This document shows, piece by piece, positions 20,544 through 23,156 of a stretch of DNA of 64,000 nt. The stretch covers positions 302,605 through 366,604 of the forward strand of contig CASFDV010000001.1 in assembly GCA_949293555.1 (NCBI GenBank), written 5' to 3'. The position numbers were made by a program, and so were the translations under genes. The stretch comes from an uncultured Bacillota bacterium (GTDB taxonomy: Bacteria; Bacillota_I; Bacilli_A; RFN20; CAG-826). The notes under the pieces were generated by a model. The model was not told where the DNA came from, did not search any database, and saw only the letters and a program-made list of their open reading frames with translations. Each line of letters opens with the position of its first letter. Position 1 is the stretch's first letter.

Positions 20544-20562
20544 GAACAGGGCATGACATCAC

Positions 20563-20586
20563 GCCGGGCCTGGTCCCGGCTTTTTC
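20563..20586 (+). terminator. Rho-independent terminator
   Basis: GCCGGG/CCCGGC stem, 6-base loop, TTTTT; closes the 41-residue gene. Confidence 0.85.
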
Positions 20587-20605
20587 GTCCTTGGGGCAGG
20601 GAGGG

Positions 20606-20611
20606 TATACT
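20606..20611 (+). promoter_or_regulatory. -10 box placed for a leaderless transcript of the XRE gene
   Basis: TATACT ends 7 bases before the ATG at 20619, so transcription would start at or next to the start codon. No TTGACA-like -35 is clear. GGGAGG at 20600-20605 could alternatively act as a distant ribosome site for a longer transcript. Confidence 0.45.
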
Positions 20612-20618
20612 AGCCACC

Positions 20619-21272
20619 ATGAAAAGCCTCGAGGAAATCGTCGCCAGGAACCTCGCCGAGCTGAGGAAGGCCCGCGGGCTCACCCAGCTCGAGGTCGCGG
20701 AGCGCTTCAACTACACGGACAAGTCCGTCTCGAAATGGGAGCACGGGGACGGCCTCCCCGACGTGAGGACCCTCCAGGCGTTCGCGGACTTCTACGGGGT
20801 CACCCTCGACTACCTAACCCATGACCAGAGCGACCTCTCCCTCCACGAGAAGGGGCGCATCTCCCCCAAGGACCTCAGGATGAACAAGATCATCCTCACG
20901 GCCCTGGCGATCGTCCTCGTCTTCTCCATCGCGACGGTCATATTCGCCGCGACGGTCGTCATGGACAACGTCTGGTGGAACGGCTGGCTCGCCTTCGTAT
21001 GGGCGGTGCCCGTCTCCTTCCTTTGCCTGATCTCCTTCAACAGGAGGTGGGGGAGGCGCGAATGGGGGCTTCCCCTTGCGATCGCCTTCGTCTGGACCTT
21101 CCTCTTCGCCGTCTACATCGAGCTCGCCGTCGACCTCGACTACGACTCCGGCTACAACCTCTGGTTCGTCCTCCTCCTCGGGATCCCCCTCACCCTCGGG
21201 ATCTTCCTGTTCTGGAGGTTCCGCGAGCTTCACCGGCGTTCCAGGTCCCAGGAAGAAAACGCGAACAAATAG
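20619..21272 (+). CDS. XRE-family regulator with four membrane helices
   Basis: A 217-residue protein. Residues 1-68 form a Cro/CI helix-turn-helix (RNLAELRKARGLTQLEVAERF, then YTDKSVSKWEHGDGLPDVRTL), a common form in Firmicutes. After a short linker come four hydrophobic segments (about residues 88-112, 116-135, 148-168 and 180-200) and a basic tail. It is likely a membrane-tethered repressor or sensor of envelope state. The frame opens further upstream (20553), but that part contains the preceding terminator, so the ATG at 20619 is chosen. It is monocistronic, and its target is unknown. Confidence 0.8.
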   Translation: MKSLEEIVARNLAELRKARGLTQLEVAERFNYTDKSVSKWEHGDGLPDVRTLQAFADFYGVTLDYLTHDQSDLSLHEKGRISPKDLRMNKIILTALAIVLVFSIATVIFAATVVMDNVWWNGWLAFVWAVPVSFLCLISFNRRWGRREWGLPLAIAFVWTFLFAVYIELAVDLDYDSGYNLWFVLLLGIPLTLGIFLFWRFRELHRRSRSQEENANK

Positions 21273-21332: not shown

Positions 21333-21671
21333 TCACCTATCCAGAGTGCTGCGGAAAAGGTCTCTCAGTTCATTAATGTCTTCAGAAACAATTTCATAGA
21401 CGGTCATCAAATTTACCTTGCCATAGGCGTGAACGATTCCATTGCGAAACCCAATGATTTCACCCCAAGGTATGTCAGGGAACTGCCGTTTGAACGTGTC
21501 TGAGAGCGACTTGATTTTCTCTATCAGCTGCTGCAGACGGAACATCGTTGCGTCAACTGTCTTTCCGTCCCTTGCAAATTCTTCATAAGAAAGATCAAGC
21601 GTGTAACTGAGGATAACGTCCATGTCCCCAATTGCTTGGCGAATGTAATAAAGATCGCCCTTGCTACCCAT
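21333..21671 (-). CDS. HepT-type ribonuclease toxin
   Basis: A 112-residue helical protein of the HepT (DUF86) family. The signature R-x4-H-x-Y is present as RNGIVHAY (Arg76, His81, Tyr83), the catalytic and AMPylated site in studied MntA-HepT pairs. It overlaps the upstream nucleotidyltransferase gene by 8 bases, the usual antitoxin-toxin order. The codon use is less GC-rich than the neighbours, suggesting acquisition. Its role is probably RNA cleavage when the partner fails to AMPylate it, from family knowledge. Confidence 0.85.
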   Translation of the reverse strand: MGSKGDLYYIRQAIGDMDVILSYTLDLSYEEFARDGKTVDATMFRLQQLIEKIKSLSDTFKRQFPDIPWGEIIGFRNGIVHAYGKVNLMTVYEIVSEDINELRDLFRSTLDR

Positions 21672-22143
21672 AAATCCTTATCCCGTCCCTCAGTATTTCG
21701 TAGACCAACTTCCAGTTGTCCTCGAGCTCGCTGTCGCGAATGACGTCGACCTTCTTGCGAAGCCTCTCGCGGACGCGCTCCATCAACCCAAGAAACGCAA
21801 TGCCCCCCAATGAAGAAGAGACATAAATATCGACGTCGCTCTCCGGTTTCGGGTTTCCTCTCGCATAGCTGCCGAAGAGATAGCAAAAACGCACCTTGCC
21901 TTTATATTGGTTCGCGAAAAGGTCTCGTAGCTGACCCCGGATCCACTCAATCGTCAGGAGGCCTTTCTCCTCGGTTATCTCGCATTCCTCATTCAGCCGA
22001 GAAATAAGGGCAGACCTTTTCAACGAGTCGCCGTAGTCATCGTCGCTTTCGTAGCGACGATAGGTCCTAAGCGGAATGCCGACGATGCGAGCGGCCTCCG
22101 CCTGCGCTAGCCCGTAATGTTTCCTTGTTTCGTACAAGTTCAT
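21664..22143 (-). CDS. MntA-type nucleotidyltransferase antitoxin fused to an XRE-like DNA-binding domain
   Basis: A 159-residue protein. Residues 1-35 (YETRKHYGLAQAEAARIVGI, then PLRTYRRYE) look like a helix-turn-helix. The C-terminal half is a minimal nucleotidyltransferase with GSYARGNPKPESDVDIYV at 91-108, i.e. GSx10DxD with Asp103 and Asp105. In MntA-HepT systems this enzyme AMPylates the toxin's Tyr. Most MntA proteins lack the DNA-binding part, so the fusion likely gives autoregulation, consistent with three CCA-N3/4-TGG repeats upstream (22167-22242). GGGGAAAGG precedes the ATG. Confidence 0.85.
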   Translation of the reverse strand: MNLYETRKHYGLAQAEAARIVGIPLRTYRRYESDDDYGDSLKRSALISRLNEECEITEEKGLLTIEWIRGQLRDLFANQYKGKVRFCYLFGSYARGNPKPESDVDIYVSSSLGGIAFLGLMERVRERLRKKVDVIRDSELEDNWKLVYEILRDGIRIYG

Positions 22144-22160
22144 GCCTTTCCCCCATGAGC

Positions 22161-22242
22161 ACTATACCAACAATGGCCTCTTGCTTCTATGTTTAAGGGC
22201 CATTTTGGCCTATCAAGTATAAACATATATGCCATTCTGGCC
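22161..22242 (-). promoter_or_regulatory. Promoter and triple operator of the toxin-antitoxin pair
   Basis: A -10 box TATAGT with upstream TG (minus strand, 22166-22161) lies 17 bases before the antitoxin ATG. Three imperfect palindromes of the form CCA-N3/4-TGG lie at 22167-22178, 22198-22210 and 22231-22242. Their centres are about 32 bases apart, i.e. three helical turns. The first abuts the -10 box. They are the natural binding sites for the HTH domain of the antitoxin. Confidence 0.5.
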
Positions 22243-22283
22243 GTTCGCAGGGAAACGACAGTCAAGTAAGTATTGCCTTTGCT

Positions 22284-23156
22284 TCAGCAAAGCTTTTTCA
22301 TCCATTCCGTTTCCTCATCAAGGACACGGAACGCGATCTTCGTCCGGAAGTCGAGATGGAAGACATGGCCGAGCCGGTTCCCTTCCTTCGACCAGCAGTA
22401 ACGGTATTCATGGGGAATTCCCCTGGACAGGAGATAGCCGTGGAGCCACTCGGTCTCCCAGAGGAGGAAGTCCTTCTCCGCGCTCAGGAGGAAGATGGGA
22501 GGAATGGACTTCTTGATGAAACGTAGGGGATTCAGCCGCGGGTCGTCCCTGTCGTAGTCCTTCCAAAGGAGGTTCTTCGCGACGAACCTCGTCATGAAGT
22601 CTTCCTTCCTGTCCCCGAAGCCCATGTAGGTTCCGCAGTTGAGGACAAGCCCTCTTATAGGGAGAGGGAAGCGGAGGGGATAGAGCATCCCGTGCTCCGG
22701 GACGGACTCGGCGATCCCGTACTGGAGTGCCATCGAGGCCCCCGCGGAATCCCCGACGAGAAAGATCCTCCCAAGGTCGGCTCCCCATTCCTCGTGCCTT
22801 TCCTTCAGGAGGGAAAGGGTTTCGTCCAGGGCGACGAGCTGGGCGGGGAAGCGCACCCCGGGGGCAAGGGGATACTCATAGATGATCGCAAGGAAGCCCT
22901 TGGACGCGAGCATGTTCCCATAAAGCGCGTACGTCTCGATCCCTCCGTACACCCAGCCTCCCCCGTGGGTGATGAGGGCGACGGGAAGAGGATTCCCCTC
23001 CGGTCCTTCCTTCCGGTAAAGGCCGATCCTCATCTTCCCGAAGGAAAAGGCCTCCTCGAGGATTCTCTCCTCCACTCCCTCGGGCGCAGGGACGGAATCC
23101 CTTTTCCTGTCCCCGCGGGCGGAAATGGAAGCGAAGCAACGCGCAAGGAACGACAT
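22284..23156 (-). CDS. Alpha/beta-hydrolase, hormone-sensitive-lipase type esterase
   Basis: A 290-residue hydrolase. HGGGWVYGG (about residues 75-83) is the HSL-family oxyanion-hole motif and VGDSAGAS holds the nucleophile Ser. A late Asp in SAEKDFLLWETEWL and His in GHVFHLD complete the triad. The substrate is a small ester or acyl compound and is otherwise unknown. The start at 23156 is chosen because AAGGAG lies 15 bases upstream. The frame runs open to 23417, but that part is antisense-frame sequence inside clpB. A residual N-terminal hydrophobic start (MSFLARCFASISA) is not a clear signal peptide. It follows clpB's terminator. Confidence 0.8.
   Translation of the reverse strand: MSFLARCFASISARGDRKRDSVPAPEGVEERILEEAFSFGKMRIGLYRKEGPEGNPLPVALITHGGGWVYGGIETYALYGNMLASKGFLAIIYEYPLAPGVRFPAQLVALDETLSLLKERHEEWGADLGRIFLVGDSAGASMALQYGIAESVPEHGMLYPLRFPLPIRGLVLNCGTYMGFGDRKEDFMTRFVAKNLLWKDYDRDDPRLNPLRFIKKSIPPIFLLSAEKDFLLWETEWLHGYLLSRGIPHEYRYCWSKEGNRLGHVFHLDFRTKIAFRVLDEETEWMKKLC

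Follow-up and report, generated by a model that had tools for sequence, protein, structure and literature searches.

A single explanation very probably accounts for a small operon on the minus strand of the window (i.e. the whole stretch of 64,000 nucleotides of an uncultured Bacillota bacterium that was analysed). It would be a class I HEPN/MNT toxin-antitoxin operon in which the antitoxin is fused to an XRE-type helix-turn-helix (HTH) domain, represses its own synthesis through three upstream sites O1 to O3, AMPylates the HepT toxin, and draws its DNA specificity from residues 29 and 30. At the level of sequence the evidence lies in the fusion itself, the geometry of the array of sites, the way in which this array overlaps the promoter, and the covariation between protein and operators.

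The antitoxin gene (21664..22143, minus strand), identified from its open reading frame and Pfam matches, encodes a protein of 159 amino acids. The N-terminus is an XRE-type HTH (residues 3-33), followed by a linker helix (residues 40-54) and an MNT nucleotidyltransferase domain (residues 81-158). The Pfam HTH_3 match to residues 3-34 is marginal, at 23.1 bits against a cut-off of 23. The MNT domain is matched by Polbeta (E 7.9e-14) and NTP_transf_2 (E 4.2e-08), and the antitoxin scores 33.9 bits with PF01909 (cut-off 21). The occurrence of both domains in one 159-residue reading frame bears out the HTH-nucleotidyltransferase fusion proposed in the first-pass annotation. Direct reading shows that the nucleotidyltransferase motif GSX10DXD is intact and exact at residues 91-105 (GSYARGNPKPESDVD; 21829..21873, minus strand); among 74 homologues G91, S92, D103 and D133 are invariant, and D105 is nearly so. 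An AlphaFold2 model calculated with these 74 homologues has a mean pLDDT of 92. Helices 3-9, 14-21 and 25-33 form a classical HTH, the last two predicted with high confidence, and the MNT fold lies behind it. On structural comparison the MNT half matches the solved MntA/MNT antitoxins 8xeh and 7bxo, including Shewanella MntA.

The adjacent gene (21333..21671, minus strand) encodes the HepT toxin of 112 amino acids. It matches PF01934 with an E of 1.8e-20 (73.3 bits, cut-off 23.5), the only such match across the 1.34-Mb genome. The two genes overlap by 8 nt, an arrangement also present in 44 of the 77 relatives that have a HepT. The RX4HXY motif, read directly as RNGIVHAY, is intact (R76-Y83; 21423..21446, minus strand) and holds the predicted RNase residues together with the predicted AMP-accepting tyrosine. 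Class I HEPN/MNT systems are defined by a PF01934 or PF08780 toxin with RX4HXY and a neighbouring PF01909 protein with GSX10DXD (PMC7641770), and by this published motif definition the locus is assigned to the class (HepT-MntA, type VII TA). With the NCBIfam models HepT_toxin (NF047751) and MntA_antitoxin (NF047752) the proteins score 40.1 and 45.7 bits respectively, below the curated whole-protein cut-offs of 60 bits, so that the pair is not assigned to those narrower equivalogs. The MNT domain would AMPylate HepT at the motif tyrosine Y83, thereby silencing a presumably toxic RNase; AMPylation of HepT by MntA has been demonstrated for the Shewanella and Thermococcus pairs (PMC7641770).

HepT is detected next to 77 of the 118 relatives with enough downstream sequence, and 76 of these 77 toxins retain RX4-6HXY. 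The remaining 41 have no recognisable neighbouring HepT, a count that may be inflated by incomplete contigs, truncated or frameshifted neighbours, or divergent HepTs. These, several of which (L011, L098, L099, L117 and L128) retain perfect arrays, could indicate that the HTH-MNT protein is mainly an autonomous self-repressor, in which neutralisation of HepT is secondary or has been lost in some members. We consider this rather unlikely, because at this locus the motifs of HepT and MNT are intact and the genes overlap, and because the motif is so well kept in the detected HepTs. An alternative downstream partner was sought in the 41 solitary loci; only assorted genes were found. In one of these loci (L009) the solitary HTH-MNT gene is followed by a metallopeptidase-like protein of 189 amino acids with a HEIRH motif, where HepT would sit.

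Upstream of the antitoxin gene there are three CCA-N3/4-TGG words, at 22167-22176, 22200-22208 and 22232-22240. Two of them lie within 13-bp palindromes 32 bp apart, i.e. O1 (22230..22242; GGCCAGAATGGCA on the minus strand, centre 22236) and O2 (22198..22210; GGCCAAAATGGCC on the minus strand, centre 22204). A further 32 bp from O2 is O3, which we define as a half-site AGGCCA (22174..22179, minus strand) with a virtual centre at 22172. The first-pass annotation had described three palindromes about 32 bp apart. Measured between the words, the spacings are 32.5 and 32 bp; the centre given at 22204 falls at 22204.0, and those given as 22172.5 and 22236.5 fall at 22171.5 and 22236.0. All three words are present, but the third is conserved only as its GGCCA half (22174-22178).

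The arrangement recurs in relatives. From 198 loci gathered, 125 were left once those at least 80% identical had been removed, and palindrome pairs were sought in their upstream regions without any given sequence, using a threshold score of at least 17 and 1000 control windows from the same contigs. Pairs were found in 56/125 upstream regions compared with 9/1000 control windows; pairs spaced by 30-33 bp were present in 51/125 and in none of the 1000 controls. Such conservation of geometry leaves negligible room for an artefact of chance or composition, even though the palindromes are short and there are many words to choose from. Within the 1.34-Mb genome there are 25 GCCA-N3-TGGC sites, and O1 and O2 are the sole pair within 45 bp; no close pair occurred in any of 200 shuffled windows. 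O1 and O2 exceed chance expectation.

A generic scan for sigma-70 promoters gave no hit here, which, like the weak -35 described below, speaks against the proposed model; the promoter was located from relatives, in which its position is conserved. When 44 loci are aligned on the centre of O2, 33 of them have a -35 element starting at +14 to +16, and 32 have a -10 element starting at +37 to +39. At this locus the predicted -35 position reads TAGAAG, a weak match (22184..22189, minus strand), and the -10 element is extended, TGG-TATAGT (TGGTATAGT; 22161..22169, minus strand). The purine-rich stretch GGGGGAAAGG before the ATG (22145..22154, minus strand, by direct reading) is likely to be the ribosome-binding site. 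In the same 44 loci a third half-site, corresponding to a left arm, is found at +32 from O2 in 29, with the peak at exactly +32. These positions place O2 against the -35 element, and the third half-site within the spacer between -35 and -10.

The alignment also bears on the nature of the third site. A rival reading treats all three words as equivalent palindromes, with an antitoxin dimer on each, and three words of the required kind do exist. Yet at +32 the left arm recurs with a mean of 4.36 of 6 matches against a background of about 1.4, whereas the right arm reaches only 1.68. The third word also has N4, against N3 in the two others, and the outer half of this word falls on the extended -10 (i.e. 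the TGG of the -10 element is the 'CCA' half of the supposed palindrome). The locus of a sister species (L002) is syntenic over 3.4 kb with 84% DNA identity; it keeps O1, O2 and the half-site, but reads AGGCCATCTTC at the third site, with no right arm and without the TGG. Three equivalent operators are therefore very unlikely, and we rejected the third word as a full palindromic operator in favour of two palindromes and one half-site.

The recognition helix in the AlphaFold2 model comprises residues 25-33 (LRTYRRYES; 22045..22071, minus strand) and contains the residues that covary most strongly with the DNA. The operators vary among relatives, and this variation follows the fused HTH. In 55 arrays selected for palindromy alone, two protein-DNA pairs show the strongest association, namely residue 29 and base -6, and residue 30 and base -3, although there is a background of relatedness, with residue 37 and residue 136 of the MNT domain close behind. 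Under stricter selection, which leaves 33 arrays, residue 30 is still first, and residue 136 ranks above residue 29. At bases -7/-6 arginine at position 29 corresponds to AG, lysine to GT, glutamine to AC, and isoleucine, valine, serine or alanine to AT. At base -3 arginine at position 30 corresponds to C, and asparagine, serine, threonine, glutamate or tyrosine to A. The G at -5 and R26 are near constant. The combinations are modular, such that R29N30 is found with AGGCAA in L184. For R29 and R30 of the present protein (22054..22059, minus strand) the covariation predicts the half-site AGGNCA, and AGGCCA occurs at both O2 and O3.

With no selection of sites, 94 of 116 upstream regions have the predicted half-site as their most frequent word (the code was itself derived from a subset of these 116 loci); on permutation the mean was 22 and the maximum 36 in 1000. 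Homologues that carry the fusion and lack upstream repeats had been named as speaking against the original proposal. Some relatives may be of this kind, but only a minority, the predicted half-site not being the commonest word in 22/116, mostly members of a divergent Q29 group. A tree was calculated from the MNT domain alone for 101 rows, leaving out tied loci and those with at most one hit. R30 and C at -3 are concordant in 101/101 rows through 5 switches, and R29 and AG in 101/101 rows through 7. K29 occurs with GT in all 20 K proteins, with 4 further GT operators lacking K, and Q29 occurs with AC in 8/12. Restricting the count to well-supported branches leaves 2, 5, ~3 and ~3 concordant independent pairs and none opposed; these switch tests are small, and none alone reaches p 0.05. 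Among later-fetched relatives less than 90% identical to the earlier ones 8 of 11 fit the code. Exceptions are the SRRxYQxYEE group, the Y25 loci (YRTYIRYE), the L30K30 type and some V29 proteins.

We conclude from these comparisons that DNA specificity is probably set largely by residue 29 (bases -7/-6) and residue 30 (base -3). The changing together of these residues and the upstream sites strongly suggests that the antitoxin shuts off its own gene, and autoregulation by the fused HTH, as first proposed, is thus strongly supported by the covariation of recognition helix and operator. Further XRE proteins are encoded nearby, for example by the divergent neighbour at 20553-21272, and another regulator might bind the repeats, leaving the fused HTH a different role, for instance in dimerisation or targeting. 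This is highly improbable, since residues of the fused recognition helix have changed in step with the sites in several independent switches, so that the sites must be read by the fused HTH itself or by a factor whose evolution matches it exactly.

The repression that we infer by the fused HTH would proceed as follows. HTH dimers would bind O1 and O2, and a single HTH would contact the half-site O3 in the promoter spacer. Antitoxin covering the promoter from O1 to O3 would exclude RNA polymerase, and hence repress the mntA-hepT operon. A spacing of 32 bp is approximately three helical turns, which would place the sites on the same face of the DNA. It is kept across relatives and would fit cooperative binding between the operators. 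Since the Shewanella HepT-MntA complex is a 6:2 hetero-octamer (PMC7641770), by analogy HepT could bridge operator-bound antitoxins. Several solitary HTH-MNT genes retain the array, and this suggests that operator binding is independent of HepT.

The locus resembles Shewanella oneidensis HepT-MntA (SO_3166/SO_3165) in having a PF01934 toxin with RX4HXY, an MNT antitoxin with GSX10DXD, and the antitoxin gene placed first and overlapping that of the toxin (PMC7641770, PMC4621449). Shewanella MntA binds its own promoter without an HTH, and a deletion strain has 1.6-fold more promoter activity (PMC4621449); its lack of a DNA-binding domain is stressed in both studies (PMC4621449, PMC7641770). In contrast to SO_3165, which has no HTH and reportedly no predicted DNA-binding domain, a dedicated XRE domain is fused here. 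The promoter of SO_3165 has two dissimilar palindromes, whereas the operators described here are regular and readable. Another nucleotidyltransferase system with a two-domain antitoxin is AbiEi/AbiEii (type IV TA; Streptococcus agalactiae and M. tuberculosis; PMC7319586, PMC7205606), in which the antitoxin controls its own expression via several inverted repeats and the cooperativity may be positive or negative. There, however, the nucleotidyltransferase is the toxin, and here it is the antitoxin. XRE and MNT act jointly in Xress-MNTss of Streptococcus suis, where autoregulation was shown by EMSA (PMC8406773), but as separate proteins with the MNT reported as the toxin, rather than as one fused antitoxin acting with HepT. 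In Xre-RES of Pseudomonas putida the XRE-type antitoxin complex, which has at least two DNA-binding units, likewise represses via promoter repeats (PMC12204516); the toxin there is unrelated and the antitoxin has no MNT enzyme domain. No description of an HTH-MNT fusion with HepT was found in the searchable, largely non-subscription literature. The HepT-MntA class would thereby gain a clear route to transcriptional control, in which one and the same enzyme silences the toxin and bears the DNA reader, accompanied by a fixed three-site promoter array. As two amino acids predict specificity, the orthogonality of toxin-antitoxin paralogues and the evolution of repressor and operator become testable by swaps.

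The organisation was initially thought to be unusual. It is common in this lineage; at the level of the order 165 of 279 genomes give a profile match, and at that of the class 68 of 395. A scan of GTDB contigs gave at least 480 relatives, and the 80 of them that were retained belong to Bacilli, Erysipelotrichaceae, Clostridia and Anaeroplasma; there is an example (L102) in a cultured species, Anaeroplasma bactoclasticum ATCC 27112. In L079, L089, L157 and L203 two HTH-MNT genes lie in tandem or near each other, and the two copies in L089 differ in their recognition helix. The G+C content of the operon and its upstream region (21400-22600) is 49-53%, compared with 52-64% in most flanks, and the upstream regions of most relatives are A+T-rich; the operon may have been gained laterally. 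Plasmid records contained no match and phage records a single one, an unannotated contig at 43% identity, so that nothing points to a module carried by plasmids or phages.

At the 5' ends of open reading frames in L031-L038 and L040 this same XRE HTH, with up to 52% identity to that of the present protein, is fused to nucleotide-sugar enzymes. The enzymes include types like UDP-GlcNAc 4,6-dehydratase (Polysacc_synt_2), a UDP-glucose dehydrogenase (L033) and a UDP-GlcNAc 2-epimerase (L040), and the promoter is often immediately preceded by a similar palindrome. L033 (K,R) has GTGNCA and L040 (Q,R) has ACGNCA, in agreement with the code, though in both another word is equally common or commoner; several V29 fusions of this kind have GTGNAA in place of ATGNAA. 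In L039 the HTH is carried by an AAA_14-type ATPase; from its R-T-Y-Q-N the code expects ACGNAA, of which the upstream region contains one copy. Tentatively, the XRE domain might be a portable autoregulation cassette with a modular two-residue code, grafted onto AMPylating antitoxins and nucleotide-sugar enzymes, with each fusion repressing its own promoter and paralogues in the same genome insulated by different codes. Finally, the MNT proteins of L049 (611-1084, plus strand) and L050 have a different N-terminal region of 60 amino acids that is ribbon-helix-helix-like, Pfam finding the MNT part only. Here MNT may have acquired a DNA-binding domain for a second time, independently of the first.
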